NCBI GenBank assembly: GCA_025774845.1
Contig: JALGZP010000014.1
Location: forward strand, 1 to 40,309
DNA from: a bacterium
GTDB lineage: Bacteria > Arandabacterota > Arandabacteria > Arandabacterales > Arandabacteraceae
DNA length: 40,309 nucleotides
Reading direction: 5' to 3'
Position numbers and translations under genes: made by a program. The notes beneath the pieces were generated by a model. The model was not told the origin of the DNA, did not search any database, and saw only the letters and a list, made by a program, of their open reading frames with translations. Below are positions 691 to 37,616 of this stretch, in pieces; the first letter of the stretch is position 1; every line of letters starts with the position of its first letter.

Positions 691-3600
691 AGCCAATGGC
701 AACAAGCCCGGTGCCTCTTTCTCCCTGATCGGGTGGCTCATTGAGTTCTGCTTGAGAAACAAGGTGATCGTGGTCCTGGCGGTGGTGGGTGCGATTGCCT
801 GGGGCATCAGTGCCGCCCCGTTCGACTGGGATATCAAGCGATTACCCCGCAGACCGGTTCCCGTGGATGCCATTCCCGACATCGGGGAGAATCAGCAGAT
901 TGTCTTCACCGGATGGATGGGGCGTTCGCCGCAGGATGTCGAGGACCAGATCACATATCCGCTTACCGTGGCACTCCTCGGCGTCCCTGGTGTGAAGACC
1001 ATCCGTAGCTACTCGATGCTGGGGTTCTCCACAATATACGTCATCTTCAAAGACGAGGTAGAATTCTACTGGTCGCGTTCGCGTGTGCTCGAGAAGCTGA
1101 ACAGTCTACCTCCCGGTACGCTCCCAGGTGGGGTCCAGCCCATGCTCGGCCCCGATGCCACGGCCCTGGGTCAGATCTTCTGGTACACGCTTGAGGGCCA
1201 TGACGAGAAGGGCAACCCGACCGGTGGATGGGACCTGGATGAGCTTCGCAGTATCCAGGACTGGATCATCCGGTATGCATTGCTTTCGGCCGACGGGGTG
1301 AGCGAGGTTGCTTCTGTCGGTGGGTTTGTGCGTGAGTACCAGATCGACGTCGATCCGGATGCAATGCGTGCTTACAAGATAAAGCTGGAAGAAGTCTTTA
1401 TGGCCATCAAGATGGCCAATGTGGATGTCGGCGCACGGACAATTGAGGTCAACAGGGTTGAATATGTAATCAGAGGAATCGGTTTTCTTAAGAGCCTGCG
1501 TGATATTGAAAATGCTGTCATAAAGGTGAAGGACAATGTCCCCATATATGTAAGGAACGTGGCGACCGTTTCGCTTGGTCCCGCCCTGAGGCGTGGCGCA
1601 CTGGACAACGAGGGTGCGGAAGCGGTCGGTGGCGTTGTGGTGGTCCGCTACGGGGAAAACCCCCTGGCTGCAATCAAGAACGTAAAGAAGAAGATTGAAG
1701 AGATCTCACCGGGGTTACCGAAGAAGATCCTTGAAGACGGGACAATCAGTCAGGTCAAGATTGTACCGTTTTATGATCGCACCGCACTCATCCATGAGAC
1801 TCTGGGCACCTTGAAATCGGCACTCACCGAGGAAATCCTAGTCACGATCATTGTGGTGCTCCTGATGGTGATGCACCTGCGCAGTTCCATGTTGATCTCC
1901 GGGCTGCTGCCGCTGGCGGTGCTCATGTGTTTCGCCGCCATGAAGGTGTTCGGAATCGATGCCAACATCGTGGCGCTTTCGGGCATCGCGATCGCCATCG
2001 GCACCATGGTGGACATGGGAATCGTGGTGTGCGAAAACATACTCAAACATCTCCAGGAGGCCGCTCCCGACGAAGATCGGCTGCAGGTGGTACTGAGGGC
2101 GTCGAAGGAGGTGGGCTCCGCCGTGGTCACCGCCGTGAGTACGACGGTGGTCAGCTTCCTGCCGGTCTTTACCATGGTCGCGGCCGAGGGTAAGCTCTTC
2201 AAACCACTGGCCTGGACCAAGACTTTTGCGCTGGTCGCCTCCGTGATCGTGGCCCTCACAGTCATCCCCCCGCTCGCTCATGTTCTCTTCACCAATAAGA
2301 GGATAAGGGGCCAGACAGCCCGGTTTGCGACCTACGGGCTTGTTGCGCTGGCCGGAATCGTCATCATCGTGACCTGGCTTGTCAGGCACCTCGCGGCCAA
2401 CGGACCGACCGCAAGCTTCGCCTGGTGGGTCCTCGGCCTGATCCTGATCGGAACCGGCGGGTACCATCTTGCATCAGAGTTGATCCCGGAACGCATACGG
2501 CGTCTGGCACCGAAGGCCGCAATCGCTCTTGCGGCCATCATCGTGGCCATCATCCTGGCCAGGCACTGGCTTCCTCTTGGCCCGGAGAAAGGACTCTTCC
2601 TCAATTCCGTTTTCGTAGTCCTGATCATCGGGGGTCTGCTCTCTTTGATACTGCTCTTTCAGCGTTTCTATGAGCATATCCTTAAGTGGTGCCTCGAGTA
2701 CAAGGTAGCTTTCCTCCTCATTCCACTGGTCTTGACTTTTCTGGGAGCCATGGTCTGGCTGGGCTTCGACACCTTCTTTGGCTGGCTTCCGCAGGGTATG
2801 AGAACGTCGTGGCCGACGTACAAGGTCGCGCACGCTTTCCCTGGACTCGGCAAGGAGTTCATGCCACCGCTGGATGAAGGCTCTTACCTCTTTATGCCTA
2901 CAACGATGCCGCATGCTTCAATCGGCGAGGCCATGGATGTACTCAGGAAGCAGGACATGGCAATGGGGCAGATTCCGGAGGTGGAATCCGTGGTGGGCAA
3001 GCTTGGCCGGGCAGAAACACCGCTCGATCCGGCCCCCGTCTCAATGATTGAGACGGTCATCAATTACCATCCGGAATACATGGTCGATGAAGAAGGCCAT
3101 CGTATGACTTTCCGCTTTGACACCGATCATGATGATCTCTTCAGGGATGAGTTCGCCAACCCGGTGCTTGCCCCTGATGGAGAGCCGTATACCGTCAAGG
3201 GTCAGTTTGAACGGGATGCACACGGAAAGTTGATTCCAGATACCGGAGGTAAGCCCTTCCGCATGTGGCGTCCGCCCCTGGATCCCGATCTTAATCCCGG
3301 CAGGAAGGCCTGGCGGGGAATCCAGGAGCCGGACGATATCTGGAAAGTGATCCTCGATGCCGCTCGGATCCCTGGTACCACTTCCGCACCGAGGCTGCAA
3401 CCCATAGCCGCTCGCATCGTCATGCTTCAAAGCGGCATGCGTGCGCCGATGGGTGTTAAGATCAAAGGACCGGACCTGGCCACCATCGAAGATGTCGGAC
3501 TCCAGATAGAGAGAATCTTGAAGGAGGTGCCCTCGGTAGAACCGTCGATGGTCATTGCCGACCGGATCGTGGGTAAACCATATCTCGAGATCAATATCGA

Positions 3601-13832: not shown

Positions 13833-16745
13833 CTACTGCAGCAGTACCATCTTACGCGTCGCGGTTCCGGTCTCGGTCGTAACCACATAGTAATAGACTC
13901 CGCTGGCGACCCTTCGAGATCGCCGATCGGTTCCATCCCACGGGATCTGGTGCGCTCCCGGAGAAGCAACACCCTCCCACAGACGGGTTACCTGTCTGCC
14001 GTCAACAGAGACAACATCGAGCCTGAGCCATGTGGGTCTGGCCACTTCAAATGCTATGCTCGTTGTCGTCTCAAACGGATTGGGGACATTCTGCAGGAGC
14101 CGGAGCTCGCCGGGGCCATAATCACTGCTGGAGATTTCCTCACCCCAGTAGAGGCCATAGGTTCCGAAGCGGTCGGCATGGGCAATCACGGTCCCCGTGA
14201 CTTCATCAACGTATGACTCAAGCGGAATCACCTGCTCATCTTCGACCCTTGCAATACAGAGATGTTGGGGATCACACGTACCGCGATCGTAGGCTATCGA
14301 TACCGTCGCCGCGCCGTCGAGCTCGTGCCCGGGAGGCGACACCTTGTATGCTGATATGAGTCCCTCAGTCTGCGTCGGAGCATCCATTATCACCACGTAC
14401 ATGTCACCCGACACCGTACCCGCCGGTAATGCAACTTCAAGACAGCCATCAGCGCTTCGCGCCACACCACCCGACCGGGCGAGAACCAAAGACGCGCCGA
14501 AACCACGGTCGTCTTGACCCCAGTTGGAATTCAGGTCCCTGCCACAGGCTTCGATCCTGAGCAGGCCGCTGGACTGGAGGGTATAGTCACATCTGAACAC
14601 ATTCGTTCCGGGAACGGCTTCGGGCACGAGATCCTCATCGGGCTCAGGTACGTCCAAACCGGCCCTCACGAAGAAACTGCTGTCCATTATTGCTTCAGAC
14701 AGAGTCACATAGATATCGAGATAATTCGTCAAGTACGGGTTCTGAAGAACTGAGATCGCCAGACCGGGAGGTATGAGATCCTGTGTATAGGCACTGTCGC
14801 TATTTACAGATGAATAATTGATCATTTCATCAAACGCGGTGATACCGTAGTAATAAGTTTCCTCGTTCAGGAGCCCCGTGTGAACAAAGCTGTCGGGCCA
14901 GGCAGGGATTGCATTGAACAGGCCGTTGTTGCCGTTCTCTACGGGTTGACCGCCGGCGGGTGACGATAGCGGCCCGTCGGTGGAATAGGTGATCAATACC
15001 CCGGTGAGGTCGAGGTCACTTGGATTGGTCCAGTGTAGCGTGACCGACCGGTCGCTTCCGGTGGCCACAAATCCGGTAACACTCCCCGGCGGTACAGAAT
15101 CTTCTGCCGTAGCAACGGCCGTGCTGGCTACCGAGTAGTTCGGAACTATGTCACCTGCAAACGCCGAGTAGTAATAGGTCACATCGTTCTCGAGACGTGT
15201 ATGCACAAAACCGTCTGAGCTTGAGGGTGAATTGTAGAACTTCCCGGCGGCACCATTTTCAACCGGTGTCCCTGCTGACGGATTCGCAGGATAATCTGTC
15301 TCGGAGTAGACTATCAGCGTATGCTCGAAATCCTCATCACCGGGATTTACCCAGCTCAAGGTCACGGTTGTATCACTTCCAACCGCACCGAAGGTTGAAG
15401 GTGCCGCGGGGGCGGCGGAGTCCCAAACGACCCGTGCTCTTATGCCGAGATCATGATCGAGCATCTCATACCAGGTGTTGCCGTTTGGACTCTTGTAGCA
15501 TTTACCCGCTGCCTGAGTGCTGAGATGGTCGGCCGGCAGGGGCTGCGCAAAGGTGGCATATGTGATTTTGGCCATCACGTATATGTCATCTCCCGCATCG
15601 ATACCCACGGGCGTGGTCAGTTCTATTGAGTGATAGCCCGGATGCTCGAAAGCCACATCGAGCCGGCTTCCGAGAAGGTTCGTAAGCGAACCCCCGGTGA
15701 AATCGTCGTATACAAAGACATCCACGTCTGTAATTTCATCAACCGAGAAAAACTCGACCCGTTCCACCGTACCGCCGCTGGCGGGTATGTACTTGCAGAA
15801 ACCCCACGCCGTGTTGCTGCCGGGATAGCCCTCATCCAGCGTGTAACCGGCTTCGTCATAGTGAAGCAACTCGCCGCTCGGATCGTAGTCCTGCCATTCA
15901 TAGAGGAATGACGAGAGATGTCCTATGCTTGCGGAGCCATATGCAATGTAAAAGTACCCGTCTTCGGTCCCGTAGCCGCAGGGGCCTCCCCAGGAGGTTC
16001 CCCAGCTGTTCTTGACTATCCAGGCGCCCTGGCCTCCAGCATGGCTCAGGGTGTCATCCCATCCGATCAGGAGGACCGCATGGTTGACCCGGTTCGCACC
16101 CGTGTAGCGGAGTGCGTAGCTACCATCATAGTTGCCGAACTCGATGCCCCAGGCATCGCCGCCTCCTGAGTATATCGCGGTGAAGACCGGACCGTGATCG
16201 TATATATACGACTTGAGCACCTCCGGATCGGGAGTCTCCTCCCACGAGATCACTCGCCAGTCGAGCAGGGTCTTGAAGTGAGCGCAGGAATCGCGACAGT
16301 TGTATTGTACGTATGAAGCGTAAGGATCGCACGATTCAAGTACCGTGCCTTGCTTTGAGAGGAAATTCGCGACCCTCCAGTAGTTGCCACCCAGACAGGG
16401 TGCGCCGTACCACATACATTCCTTTACATTGTTCTCGGAAAAATCGAAAAAGCCCGCGTCATCTATCAGGAGCTCGGATTCAAAATCGGCAAGGGCTGCA
16501 AACGCATAACATGATCCGCATGAGCCCTGGTTCTGAACCTCAGTCACGACGCCCTCTTCGCGCCAGTCATACCTTGTCGGAAGGGGCAGAGTCGTCCTGG
16601 GCATCCGTCTCGAAACCGTTTCGGGATGGTCGAATTCCGGGGGTATGTACCCCTGACCGCGCGAACCCGATGCGGCGCCAAAGAAGAAACCGGCAGCGAG
16701 TACCAGACCGACTGCGAAATGTATGTATTTCTTTGATATATCCAT
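13833..16745 (-). CDS. Secreted papain-family (C1A) protease with Fn3-like repeats and FlgD/T9SS-like C-terminal domain
   Basis: The 970-residue exported protein has a signal peptide in residues 1-31. The C1 peptidase domain follows almost directly, with no classical I29 propeptide: Gln73 and Cys79 in NQGSCGSCYAF, His222 in VNHAVLLIGWDD and Asn246 in VKNSWGTSWGG make a full catalytic set. The Trp after the catalytic Cys in most papains is Tyr here. After the protease come a beta-rich region, two or three fibronectin-III-like modules (NPGDEDFEHTLIVYS, NPSDLDLTGVLITYS), a bacterial-Ig-like segment, and a C-terminal domain with VPNPFETTTSIAFEVARP, LDVVSVDGRQVTRLW and ASGVYYYVVTTE. That end is the FlgD/T9SS-type sorting domain common in FCB bacteria. 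AAAGGGG precedes the ATG. It is probably a surface or extracellular protein degrader, paralogous to the next gene. Confidence 0.93.
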   Translation of the reverse strand: MDISKKYIHFAVGLVLAAGFFFGAASGSRGQGYIPPEFDHPETVSRRMPRTTLPLPTRYDWREEGVVTEVQNQGSCGSCYAFAALADFESELLIDDAGFFDFSENNVKECMWYGAPCLGGNYWRVANFLSKQGTVLESCDPYASYVQYNCRDSCAHFKTLLDWRVISWEETPDPEVLKSYIYDHGPVFTAIYSGGGDAWGIEFGNYDGSYALRYTGANRVNHAVLLIGWDDTLSHAGGQGAWIVKNSWGTSWGGPCGYGTEDGYFYIAYGSASIGHLSSFLYEWQDYDPSGELLHYDEAGYTLDEGYPGSNTAWGFCKYIPASGGTVERVEFFSVDEITDVDVFVYDDFTGGSLTNLLGSRLDVAFEHPGYHSIELTTPVGIDAGDDIYVMAKITYATFAQPLPADHLSTQAAGKCYKSPNGNTWYEMLDHDLGIRARVVWDSAAPAAPSTFGAVGSDTTVTLSWVNPGDEDFEHTLIVYSETDYPANPSAGTPVENGAAGKFYNSPSSSDGFVHTRLENDVTYYYSAFAGDIVPNYSVASTAVATAEDSVPPGSVTGFVATGSDRSVTLHWTNPSDLDLTGVLITYSTDGPLSSPAGGQPVENGNNGLFNAIPAWPDSFVHTGLLNEETYYYGITAFDEMINYSSVNSDSAYTQDLIPPGLAISVLQNPYLTNYLDIYVTLSEAIMDSSFFVRAGLDVPEPDEDLVPEAVPGTNVFRCDYTLQSSGLLRIEACGRDLNSNWGQDDRGFGASLVLARSGGVARSADGCLEVALPAGTVSGDMYVVIMDAPTQTEGLISAYKVSPPGHELDGAATVSIAYDRGTCDPQHLCIARVEDEQVIPLESYVDEVTGTVIAHADRFGTYGLYWGEEISSSDYGPGELRLLQNVPNPFETTTSIAFEVARPTWLRLDVVSVDGRQVTRLWEGVASPGAHQIPWDGTDRRSRRVASGVYYYVVTTETGTATRKMVLLQ

Positions 16746-34167: not shown

Positions 34168-36222
34168 ATGTTTTACCGTATACTCAGGCTAACAGGCATC
34201 TTATCACTCGCGATCGCCGGTATCATGGGAGCGCTGGTCCCGGTCTACGCCCAGAACGGCATCGACGGGATGCGGCTTGTGGGCCGAAACAACGTACAGT
34301 ATGCCCACCTGATGCACTTTCACATTGTAGGTGACTACGCATACTGCCTGAACGGCTATGATGCGGGCCTGGAGACTTACTATATCGCCGACCCCGCCAA
34401 TCCCACGCGTGTTTCACGCGGAGGATTACCCAGCTGGCGAGCCTGGTCACGGAATGACACCCTTTTTACGTTCTGCCACGATATGGGAGTCCAGATGTTT
34501 GACATATCGGCGGGGACTCCAACGCTTATCAGGTCGTACGATCCACCCGACCCGGATGTATTCTACGAAGGTGGCGTGGGGGCCGGTGATCTGCTCTATG
34601 TGGCGGCTCATCAGCGGGGTATTCACATACTCGATATAGGTTCACCCGCGAGCCCCACTTATGTGTCCGATCTCCCCCTTGCTGACAATGCATGCTGGAA
34701 TATCGTCGAGTCAGGCGGGTACCTGTTTGTGGCGAATGGACGGTTTGGCCTCTCGGTAGTCGATCTTGTGGGTGGGCCTGCTGAAGTCGCCACACTTCCA
34801 CTGCCTGGACTGGCCAACGACATTGTTGTCTCCGGCACGGCGGTCATTCTGTCACTGGCTGCCGAGGGGATCGCTTCGGTGGATATCTCAGATCCGACCA
34901 ATCCTGTGCTCCTTGACCTGGCACCGACTATGGGCAATGCATTTTCGATGGGAGCTGTGGGTGATATACTCGCCGTGGGTTCGTATACCTACCTCGAACG
35001 CTTCGACATCGGTGACCCAAGTGACATCAGGCTTGCAGGCTGGGATGCTACACACCTTTGGGCCCTCGGGGCGGATGTCGGTGTTATATCAAGCGGTGAC
35101 ACCGTGATCGCTATAGCGGATTGGCAGGGCATGGGTGTTTACCTCCCCAGGCCCGATCTTGGCGGAGACATTGAGGTCGATCCTCTGAGACTTGACTTCG
35201 GACCCGTGGGCGCCACGCCACGGGATACGACGGTCTTCGTCAGAAACAACGGGGCAGGGACACTCACTGTCGACTCAACCTGGGCCCCGACCAGCATCTC
35301 GCTCAATCCCGAGACATTCTCACTTGGGCCCGGGATGACTCAAGCCGTCACCGTGACGGCTTCCGGAACGGGTACGGTCCGTGGTGTGATCTCTTACCTT
35401 TCCAACGACCCGAACGAGCCCCAGTCCGTCCAGCATGTATACAAGAACAGCACGACGTTTCTTGGCGTTGGTGTGGAGGCGCCGGACTTCACACTGCTCG
35501 GCCTTGACAGCATAATGCACACTCTCTCCGACTACCGTGGGAAGGTCGTGTTCCTGGAGTTTGGGGCGTGCTGGTGACCGGTCGTGGCGCTGCAGGCTGC
35601 AGCGACGGACGCCGCGATTCACTCACGCTATGATTCAGCCGATGTTGTAGTCGTCCAGGTCGCCAGGGATTTCGAGGTGATCAAGAAATTCCGTGATGTC
35701 TACGGAATGGGCTTCCTGGCTCTCGAAGATGTGGGAAACGCAGTGTATAACACCTACCGTGTTCCTTATCCGGAGAGTCCACAGATGCCCTATCCCCAGG
35801 ACTGCGTGATCGATCAGAATGGCATCATCAGATACTGGTCATGGGAATACGACCCTCAGGTTATCATTGCAACGATCGACTCGCTTCTGGACAATGCGGG
35901 AGTCCCGGGAGATGGACCCGGCGGAGGCACGGGCACCGGCCAGGCCGCCGTCCGGCTGGCGCCGCCGGCGCCAAACCCTTTCCGGCCCGGAACGGAAATC
36001 CAGTTCTGGCTTTCGGCCAGAACTCACGTGCGACTAGCTGTTTACAGCCCCACAGGGCGGCTGGTCCGTATCCTGGTTGACGCTGAGCGGGGCCCGGGAG
36101 AGTGCACGGCCACTTGGAATGGACTGGATGAACACGGCCGCAAAGCCGCGAGCGGTGTCTACTTCATAGACCTATCCACATCCACCGAACGCCAGAGCCG
36201 CCGCGCGGTCCTCCTTCGTTGA
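34168..36222 (+). CDS. Probable secreted selenoprotein: LVIVD-type propeller, redoxin domain with in-frame TGA (Sec470), FlgD/T9SS-like C-terminal domain
   Basis: Reading TGA 35575-35577 as selenocysteine gives one 684-residue protein. ATG 34168 begins a signal peptide (GILSLAIAGIMGALVPVYAQ). Residues ~35-335 are propeller repeats (GVQMFDISAGTPTLIRSY, GIHILDIGSPASPTYV, GIASVDISDPTNPVLL), ~345-430 an Ig-like domain, and ~430-600 a redoxin: EAPDFTLLGLDS, GKVVFLEFGACW-TGA-PVV, then ADVVVVQVARD and PQDCVIDQNGIIRYW. The TGA falls exactly on the nucleophilic Cys of the thioredoxin motif. The frame is unchanged after it, no ribosome-binding site precedes the downstream part, and a hairpin follows at 35582-35608. 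The sorting domain (GRLVRILVDAERG, ASGVYFIDLSTS) ends the protein. Expected role: thiol or peroxide redox chemistry outside the cytoplasm. Alternative: a broken gene (34168-35577 and an orphan remainder). Confidence 0.78.
35582..35608 (+). promoter_or_regulatory. Candidate bacterial SECIS element after TGA 35575-35577
   Basis: A 7-bp stem CGCTGCA/TGCAGCG (35588-35594 with 35598-35604) closes a GGC loop. Below it a two-G bulge (35586-35587) and three further pairs plus a U-G wobble extend the stem. The loop's first G lies 17 nt after the TGA. Bacterial SECIS elements have a small loop starting with G, a stem with a bulge and a loop 16-37 nt from UGA, so this one fits. The loop lacks the GU of E. 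coli fdhF. Confidence 0.6.
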
Positions 36223-36318: not shown

Positions 36319-36371
36319 AGTTTTGTCAGACACAATCTGGGGTGTGGTTTCTCCAGGAAGGGGGCTCCGTC

Positions 36372-37616
36372 ATGAAGCAATTGCTACCGGTTTTAATGCT
36401 TGTTTTCGTCATAATTCCCATTGTCTGCCACGCCGCAACCTGGGATGTGCCGGGCGACGCGGCCACCGTCCAGGCGGGAATCGACTCCGCATCCGCAGGC
36501 GATACAGTCCTGGTCGCACCTGATACCTATTTCGAGAATTTGGTTATGAAGTCCGGCGTTGCTCTCCTGAGCAGTGGCGGCAGGGACGTTACAGCACTCG
36601 AACCGGCGATTATTGACTCGCCGATCGTGGAGTGTGTCTTTACAGGTAGGGGAACAGTGATTGAGGGATTCACCTTCCGGAACGGCGACAGCCATACCGG
36701 CGGCGGTATCAAGTGTGTCGGATCGGATATCAAGATCCTCAGCAACCGGTTTACGCTTAACGATGCGTTCCACGGGGGCGGTATCGCCATAGTGGCCTTT
36801 TCCGCTGGAAACATTGAAGACAATCTCTTTGAGGATAATGGCACCAGCGACTGGGGTGGCGGAATCTACATAGAGCAATCTTCACCCGACATAGTCGGCA
36901 ATGCCTTCACCGGGAATAGAGCCAGGTATGGGGCTGCGATCGGGATCAGGTACAGTTCGTCACCCCACGTGACCGACAACAGGTTCATCGGGAACGATGC
37001 AGTTAGACAAGGTGGGGCCATTCACTGCCGCTATAACGGGTATGCCGTGATCGAGCGTAACTGGTTTGAATCAAACTCTGCCGTCGGCTCGGCGGGAGCA
37101 ATGGCGTTTCACGAGGACGCCTATCCAACGATCCGGGAAAACATCTTCTGGAAGAATTCGGCCGGAAATGCTTCGGTCATTGGAGTCTCATTCACCAGTG
37201 ACGCACTGATCGAAAATAACACCTTCTACGACAATGATGCGTTCAATGCGACACCGGACAGTCTGCCCGCCTGCATAGGTGTTTACAGTAACTCCACGGC
37301 TAGCGTGTATAACTGCATATTCGCTTTCACAACCGGCGGTCCGGCTATTGGATGTTTCCAGGGTGCCACGGCTATCGTAGACTGTAACGACATGTGGTCG
37401 AACGATTCGGATTACCTGGGGTGTGTGCCGGGTCTCAATGACTTCTACCTGGACCCGCTGCTGTGCGATCCCACCAATGGCGACTTCTGGTTGGACTGTA
37501 GTTCACCCTGTGCAGCCCATCCGGTCTGTGGTCTGGTGGGTGCCATGGATGTAGGTTGCGGGGCCAGCAGAACGTATCCAACAACCTGGAGCAGTATCAA
37601 AGCGATATACAGATAA
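36372..37616 (+). CDS. Secreted right-handed parallel beta-helix protein ending in a TTW motif
   Basis: The 414-residue protein starts at ATG 36372 behind AGGAAGG; the in-frame start 10 codons upstream would put residues before the signal peptide MKQLLPVLMLVFVIIPIVCHA. The mature part opens with WDVPGDAATVQAGIDSASAGDTVLVAPDTYFENL, split by description, the classic beta-helix/NosD-type start. It continues with short G/N-rich rungs (GGGIKCVGSDIKILSNRF, GGGIYIEQSSPDIVGNAF, GGAIHCRYNGYAVIERNWF), the signature of a parallel beta-helix that may bind or cleave polysaccharide. The C-terminal part contains Cys pairs (CDPTNGDFWLDCSSPC) and the last residues TTWSSIKAIYR match those of the protein at 26860. 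No FlgD-type domain is present. Function unknown; probably surface-bound or secreted. Confidence 0.88.
   Translation: MKQLLPVLMLVFVIIPIVCHAATWDVPGDAATVQAGIDSASAGDTVLVAPDTYFENLVMKSGVALLSSGGRDVTALEPAIIDSPIVECVFTGRGTVIEGFTFRNGDSHTGGGIKCVGSDIKILSNRFTLNDAFHGGGIAIVAFSAGNIEDNLFEDNGTSDWGGGIYIEQSSPDIVGNAFTGNRARYGAAIGIRYSSSPHVTDNRFIGNDAVRQGGAIHCRYNGYAVIERNWFESNSAVGSAGAMAFHEDAYPTIRENIFWKNSAGNASVIGVSFTSDALIENNTFYDNDAFNATPDSLPACIGVYSNSTASVYNCIFAFTTGGPAIGCFQGATAIVDCNDMWSNDSDYLGCVPGLNDFYLDPLLCDPTNGDFWLDCSSPCAAHPVCGLVGAMDVGCGASRTYPTTWSSIKAIYR

Follow-up and report, generated by a model that had tools for sequence, protein, structure and literature searches.

Extracytoplasmic disulfide reductases of the ResA/DsbE/TlpA type (e.g. 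1st9, 4nmu, and 3gl3) have Cys at the active site and are stand-alone proteins. The window analysed here, a stretch of 40,309 nucleotides from a bacterium of the Arandabacteraceae (positions 1 to 40,309 of contig JALGZP010000014.1, assembly GCA_025774845.1), carries at 34168-36222 on the forward strand a gene for a protein with a ResA/TlpA-like redoxin domain. Within this domain lies an in-frame TGA, and nine related loci carry a TGA at the matching redoxin position. Judging from the sequences, it is very probable that we are dealing with one gene, that its TGA is read as selenocysteine (Sec; U in motifs), and that the product is an exported redoxin-type selenoprotein. Against the NCBIfam model of ResA itself (NF002854), the protein scores 43.9, compared with a cut-off of 170.

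Two reviews list, among known selenoproteins, UxxC and UxxU proteins of PF00578, UxxC proteins of PF08534, and a UGC-containing TlpA, with the Sec motifs classed as separate subfamilies (PMC13188914, PMC9312934). The peroxiredoxin-like thiol:disulfide oxidoreductase selenoproteins of PF00578 share with the window protein the Pfam domain and a Sec that stands first in a WCxxC-type site (PMC13188914, PMC9312934). Unlike these proteins, as far as they are described there, the window protein has its redoxin as the third domain of an arrangement of signal peptide, propeller, immunoglobulin (Ig)-like domain, redoxin, and FlgD-like end, and its motif is CxU/UxxV instead of UxxC. The Redoxin family selenoprotein (PF08534, UxxC) and the UGC-containing TlpA selenoprotein have the TlpA/redoxin fold and an active-site Sec in common with it, but the motif of the window protein differs from theirs (PMC13188914).

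An in-frame TGA within the redoxin domain

With the TGA read as U, 34168-36222 (+) translates as a single frame of 684 residues, which bears out the earlier claim that the stretches on either side of TGA 35575-35577 share one frame. This TGA, at residue 470 in the context VVFLEFGACW-U-PVVALQAAATD, is the sole internal stop, and the terminal stop of the gene is also a TGA (36220-36222). The features that bear on the reading are the following.

34168..36222, + strand: predicted selenoprotein, whole gene, 684 residues with TGA 35575-35577 as Sec; the N-terminal half in the database (P0004) shares its start Met
35467..35901, + strand: redoxin of ResA/TlpA-like thioredoxin fold, residues 434-578, spanning the TGA
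35569..35571, + strand: Cys468 of the CxU motif, two positions ahead of Sec and shared by the close relatives P0005-P0007
35575..35577, + strand: in-frame TGA, predicted Sec470, directly before the active-site helix (from the translation and the redoxin model)
35584..35586, + strand: codon 473, GTG (Val), where the nine other loci have the second Cys of UxxC; an open reading frame (ORF) of 212 amino acids begins here
35588..35604, + strand: hairpin resembling a bacterial selenocysteine insertion sequence (SECIS), stem CGCUGC/GCAGCG, 5-nt loop AGGCU, the loop starting 16 nt after the UGA

The Pfam AhpC-TSA model (PF00578) covers residues 434-556 across the TGA with 59.1 bits (cut-off 26), and the redoxin thus continues past the codon as the original prediction had held. 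Because the listed Foldseek matches of the full-length structure model were mainly beta-propeller entries, the redoxin was modelled alone. The resulting model is confident across Sec470 and places it just ahead of a long helix. Of the 1410 TGAs on both strands of the window, 7 are followed by a hairpin with 6/6 pairs in the register described below, and among these only the one at 35575 is flanked on either side by a long open frame (541 and 214 codons).

If the TGA were a real stop, whether by nonsense mutation, by an assembly error, or because two proteins are made with a restart at GTG 35584, the redoxin fold would be cut in its active site. In favour of a stop, two ORFs are found here in databases, and the GTG three codons on has, 6 nt ahead of it, GGTGA (35573-35577), which is similar to the last part of the Shine-Dalgarno consensus. 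The absence of a ribosome-binding site before the second part, which had been claimed earlier, is therefore not clear-cut. The sequence itself offers a simpler account of GGTGA, which is nothing other than the conserved Trp-Sec codons TGG-TGA.

The same codon in related loci

Relatives were read as DNA. A paralogue in the genome of the window (locus L013, contig C132) shows 33% identity over residues 119-673 and contains exactly one stop, a TGA in GSW-TGA-PAC, at the same codon as in the window. A profile of the Ig-like and redoxin domains (A1; 193 genomes, E<=1e-18) gave five matches in three genomes, all five with one TGA. A second profile (A2; 386 genomes, E<=1e-15, best 7 candidates per genome scored) had matches in 179 genomes. 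Among the A2 matches listed, all seven that span the whole of the Ig-like and redoxin parts have one TGA (one in genome G062 and two each in G000, which is the window genome, G125, and G219), and so do partial matches in G193 and on contig C203 of G125. Of the remaining listed matches, most are confined to the redoxin and stop-free; in some, a TGA, TAA, or TAG falls within the matched region. Listed stop-free matches that start inside the Ig-like part (G324, G142) were set aside as Cys-containing TlpA-like proteins (WCPPC, WCGPC) with, by eye, another architecture.

Taken together, TGA stands at this codon in 10/10 multi-domain loci read as DNA, namely the window, the paralogue, and eight loci from four other genomes. 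This count includes L079 and L080 (G125), whose N-terminal parts were read by eye, L070 (G193), and the second copy in G219. The window has the motif CWUPVV, and the nine other loci have WUPxC. The in-frame TGA within the redoxin is more than chance, because the same TGA recurs in these nine loci; the check on stops in homologues that had been proposed with the original prediction thus came out in its favour. In L070 (around 1917-1932, minus strand), the propeller and Ig-like parts lie in a different frame from the redoxin, owing to a frameshift, or an error of the assembly, ahead of the TGA.

With residues 330-580 as the query, 14 database proteins of 457-473 amino acids were found, including the window's own, and all 14 end just before the UGA residue; the last residue is W in 13 and S in one. 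The exception is P0007, which ends in GACS, not GACW, and is the sole protein of the 14 without Trp before the presumed UGA. The paralogue as the query returned 13 proteins including its own, of which 11 terminate at that W and two read through with Cys. These two full-length relatives, P0019 (GSWCPAC) and P0021 (GTWCPAC), have a Cys aligned to the UGA. The C-terminal fragment retrieved 24 proteins, its own and 23 further ones; 13 were inspected. Five C-terminal halves begin at residue 473, and the place of restart is not the same in all relatives. P0005 (N-terminal half, 89% identity) and P0033 (C-terminal half, 78%) are probably two halves of one gene, because both list a 26,170-base contig and both are named Candidatus Eisenbacteria by NCBI. 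The N-terminal half P0014 is named WOR-3.

Two points in this material weigh against reading the codon as Sec. The truncated database relatives are known as proteins only, and among the 14 database matches of the window protein there is no Cys-containing member of its subfamily. The proposed check on Cys at residue 470 in homologues nevertheless came out in favour of Sec, with TGA at this codon in some relatives and Cys in P0019 and P0021.

Nucleotide substitution was compared on the two sides of the codon by the Nei-Gojobori method against L033, L087, and L113. Nonsynonymous divergence (dN) was 0.42-0.43 before the TGA and 0.33-0.41 after it, and synonymous divergence (dS), which is near saturation, was 1.14-2.15 and 1.19-1.52, respectively. 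The dN/dS ratio is about equally low on both sides. When the part after the TGA was read in the two other frames, dN was 0.37-0.57 and dS was 0.53-0.73. A real stop at 35575 is very improbable in view of these results: the TGA recurs at the codon in nine other loci, 13/13 other database matches end there, two relatives read straight through with Cys, the place of restart varies, and selection is alike on both sides.

Active-site TGAs also occur in three small single-domain redoxins, L072:760-762 (WUGFC, G194), L073:1795-1797 (MUAVC, G193), and L081:1630-1632 (WUGSC, G125), which, from their sequences, are likely further selenoproteins. A scan of genome contigs with a Cys-only pattern, which is blind to Sec forms, found four loci in other lineages.

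The downstream hairpin and the selenium machinery

In the register of the hairpin, numbered from the U of UGA as position 1, the stem joins positions 14-19 to 25-30 and encloses a 5-nt loop; the hairpin begins 10 nt after the UGA. According to a review, bacterial SECIS elements have a loop of 3-9 nt, a stem of 4-16 bp, a G in the first two loop positions, and a distance of 16-37 nt from the UGA (PMC13188914). With its loop AGGCU of 5 nt, a 6-bp stem, and 16 nt, the window hairpin lies within these ranges, although there may be further rules. An alignment of 11 sequences (the window, seven other multi-domain loci, and the three single-domain loci) has 83.3% of its cells paired and 13 cells changed on both sides. 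Its covariation score is 0.582, compared with 0.266 in shuffled alignments (reached by 0/500, although the shuffles ignore relatedness) and at most 0.152 in slid controls. All six pairs form in 7/11 sequences, and L070 has 5/6. The two G219 copies have a hairpin identical to that of the window. As a background, 55/9099 TGAs across the loci have 6/6 pairs, a count that contains overlapping loci as well as true sites. The sequence that follows the TGA is able to fold into a hairpin like a bacterial SECIS, with compensatory changes in relatives, and the folding check proposed with the original prediction thus came out in its favour.

Several results temper this interpretation. The number of pairs with a change on both sides (5) was reached by 26/500 shuffles and that of further pair types (10) by 27/500. 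In the common register, L013 pairs only 2/6 positions, and L072 and L081 pair 3/6; L013 needs a shifted hairpin (CCGC-GGUC-GCGG) with the loop starting one nucleotide later. Folding of single hairpins was not clearly better than that of shuffles, with z values of -0.87 (40 nt) and -1.44 (53 nt) for the window and of -1.29 and 0.04 for L013, and for this reason the case for the hairpin rests on covariation. Six sequences that do not belong to the window's subfamily were used for a covariance model, whose top site in the window is 35575, yet with 13.1 bits and an E value of 0.18, the next site scoring 12.4. The same model finds L033, L113, and L115 at E values of 0.0003-0.0011; at E<=1 it does not find L013, L072, or L081. 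Rfam at gathering cut-offs gave nothing in the window.

The window genome is a 3.3 Mb draft of 198 contigs and 86.98% completeness. It encodes SelA (587 bits, cut-off 267.9), SelB (369.2 bits, cut-off 242.25), and SelD (402.4 bits, cut-off 125), which scored above the cut-off in 1/14, 2/14, and 2/14 control genomes, respectively. SelD is fused behind an apparent cysteine desulfurase or Sec lyase, NifS-like by eye (L009:196-2400, minus strand, contig C2).

The fourth component, selC (tRNA-Sec), was not found in this incomplete draft with RF01852 (150/509 candidates scored), and this absence counts against Sec insertion. Ten RF01852 matches in the genome all lie below the gathering score, the best with 46.9 against 47 bits. 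Six of them, in L004-L007, were rejected as selC because ARAGORN identified them as ordinary tRNAs for Ser, Leu, and Trp; the remaining four are weak (30.9-35.3 bits). A tRNA-Sec pattern search of the genome gave nothing, and the selC of a relative as a DNA query gave only matches of 18 and 23 nt, with no tRNA there. Across 193 genomes, tRNA-Sec was above the cut-off in 92, the window genome not among them. It is present in all five genomes of the same family that were searched, in the one of the same order, and in the one of the same class, as well as in G062 and G125 (G193 and G219 were outside this count). In G002 and G006, selC directly follows selD, which is not so in the window genome. 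The simplest reading would be that selC of the window genome was lost in an assembly gap. Of the selABCD set that the original prediction proposed to look for, selA, selB, and selD are present, and selC was not found in the draft.

Readthrough of the TGA as another amino acid, either through an altered code that assigns it to, for example, Trp or Gly or through leakiness of the stop, would likewise account for the open frame on both sides and would fit a draft in which selC was not found. We regard it as highly improbable, because the terminal stop of the gene is itself a TGA, selA, selB, and selD are present, the aligned residue is Cys in two full-length relatives, and the SECIS-like hairpin covaries. 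The reading as Sec draws its support from the conserved TGA, the Cys relatives, the covarying hairpin, and the three genes. SelA and SelD, together with tRNA-Sec, would make Sec-tRNA; SelB, bound to the hairpin downstream of the UGA, would bring in Sec for residue 470.

Architecture, catalytic site, and meaning

The remaining parts of the protein surround the redoxin as follows.

34168..34251, + strand: likely signal peptide of the Sec type, residues 1-28, presumed end VYA (hydrophobic start, then VYA-Q, by eye)
34273..35145, + strand: beta-propeller of LVIVD repeats, residues 36-326 (PF08309, 31.9 bits, cut-off 20.2)
35170..35445, + strand: Ig-like domain of HYDIN/ASH type, residues 335-426 (PF22544, 18.6 bits, under the cut-off of 25.5)
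35971..36219, + strand: FlgD-like C-terminal domain, residues 602-684 (PF13860, 23.4 bits, under the cut-off of 27)

The structure model has a helix at residues 2-21, within the signal-peptide stretch, confident propeller strands, and Ig-like strands with a block predicted local distance difference test score (pLDDT) of over 90. The FlgD-like end is weakly modelled (block pLDDT 33-54). This end resembles the C-terminal tails of proteins of the type IX secretion system (T9SS) and of FlgD-Ig-tailed proteins, but no curated sorting-tail model scores above its cut-off on the window protein (PF13860, 23.4 against 27; TIGR04183, 15.8 against 23). The T9SS/FlgD-like end proposed earlier is therefore retained as a similarity, below the Pfam and TIGRFAM cut-offs. 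The tail of the paralogue passes PF13860 with 32.6 bits, and similar tails occur on many proteins of the window genome, about 120 of 147 matches in a protein search lying in the tail alone (counted by eye). By similarity, the end is perhaps a surface or secretion tail, and the whole is likely a secreted protein of propeller-Ig-redoxin-FlgD-like layout whose selenol site is ResA/TlpA-like. Secretion of a selenoprotein had been called unusual; it appears less so, as a 2026 review counts an outer-membrane barrel and a TonB-dependent receptor type as selenoproteins (PMC13188914).

Other observations concern the paralogue and the neighbourhood. The propeller of the paralogue (L013:1453-3585) weakly matches PF05694, the family of 56 kDa selenium-binding proteins (16.7 bits, cut-off 34), which probably reflects just the shared propeller. 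A papain-like protease lies near the paralogue in L013 on the minus strand (by eye), and the window encodes at 13833-16745 a papain protease with a weak FlgD-like end. The gene that follows the predicted selenoprotein gene (36342-37616) encodes a NosD/parallel beta-helix protein (PF05048, 39.7 bits), and beta-helix-like sequence was also seen by eye upstream of the relatives in L033 and L115.

At the active site, the window motif is UPVV and thus does not conform to UxxC or UxxU; the nine other multi-domain loci do, with UxxC. Position 468 is N, T, D, A, or L in ten more distant relatives. The CxU motif of the original prediction stands with Cys468; its statement that no second Cys follows does not, because C546 is a further Cys of the redoxin downstream of Sec470. 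In the close C-terminal halves examined, residue 546 is Cys in P0035 and Tyr in P0032-P0034.

Even with Sec inserted, the enzyme could be a one-Sec peroxidase (AhpE-type or 1-Cys peroxiredoxin-like) and not a disulfide oxidoreductase. The peroxiredoxin motif is PxxxTxxC/U (PMC13188914), and it is absent from the window protein, in which Leu463 replaces the P and Ala467 the T. In addition, the nine other loci have the ResA-like WUPxC, and the best solved relatives by sequence profile are mostly ResA-type disulfide oxidoreductases. A peroxidase is therefore unlikely.

As a disulfide oxidoreductase, the protein may work as follows. Exported through its signal peptide, the 684-residue protein would be positioned by the FlgD-like tail on the cell envelope or outside it, where the propeller and Ig-like domain may dock a substrate or partner. 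In the ResA/TlpA-like redoxin, Sec470 would be the selenol that attacks disulfides or other oxidised substrates. In the nine related loci, the bond would be resolved by the Cys at +3 from Sec (UxxC). The window protein and, apparently, its close relatives lack this Cys, and there Cys468 (CxU) would be the likeliest resolving thiol, with a partner protein as the alternative. That Cys468 has no such role in the window clade, and that an outside thiol or partner protein regenerates the selenol, is a possibility of some weight, albeit the less probable one. The CxU geometry is tight, and C546 offers an alternative in the window protein and P0035. In contrast, the three closest relatives, P0005-P0007, retain Cys468, the ten more distant ones have other residues there, and the five C-terminal halves that start at residue 473 have a non-Cys residue at that place.

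No propeller-Ig-redoxin-FlgD selenoprotein was found in the literature searched, which consisted mainly of titles and the beginnings of abstracts, most subscription papers lying outside it. The same literature yielded no reports on selenoproteins in Eisenbacteria and, for selenoproteins with type IX secretion, nothing related. In NCBIfam, no match above the cut-off was found for the four family members scanned. Redoxin selenoproteins are known, and the multi-domain family and the CxU branch look new in the searches made.

Most of the matching database proteins found end at the UGA or begin at or just after it, which is an annotation fault. We lean, by a little, towards the wider view that a whole lineage of surface-displayed selenoproteins (propeller-Ig-redoxin-tail) in several little-studied lineages has been missed by gene calling that cuts at the UGA, and that one branch, by moving its resolving thiol from UxxC to CxU, represents an undescribed type of extracellular selenenylsulfide enzyme. 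If this is true, an exported multi-domain family would join the known redoxin selenoproteins, and uncultured lineages would have selenium chemistry outside the cytoplasm. A single family that has switched from UxxC to CxU would then be a natural experiment on the resolution of a selenol site.
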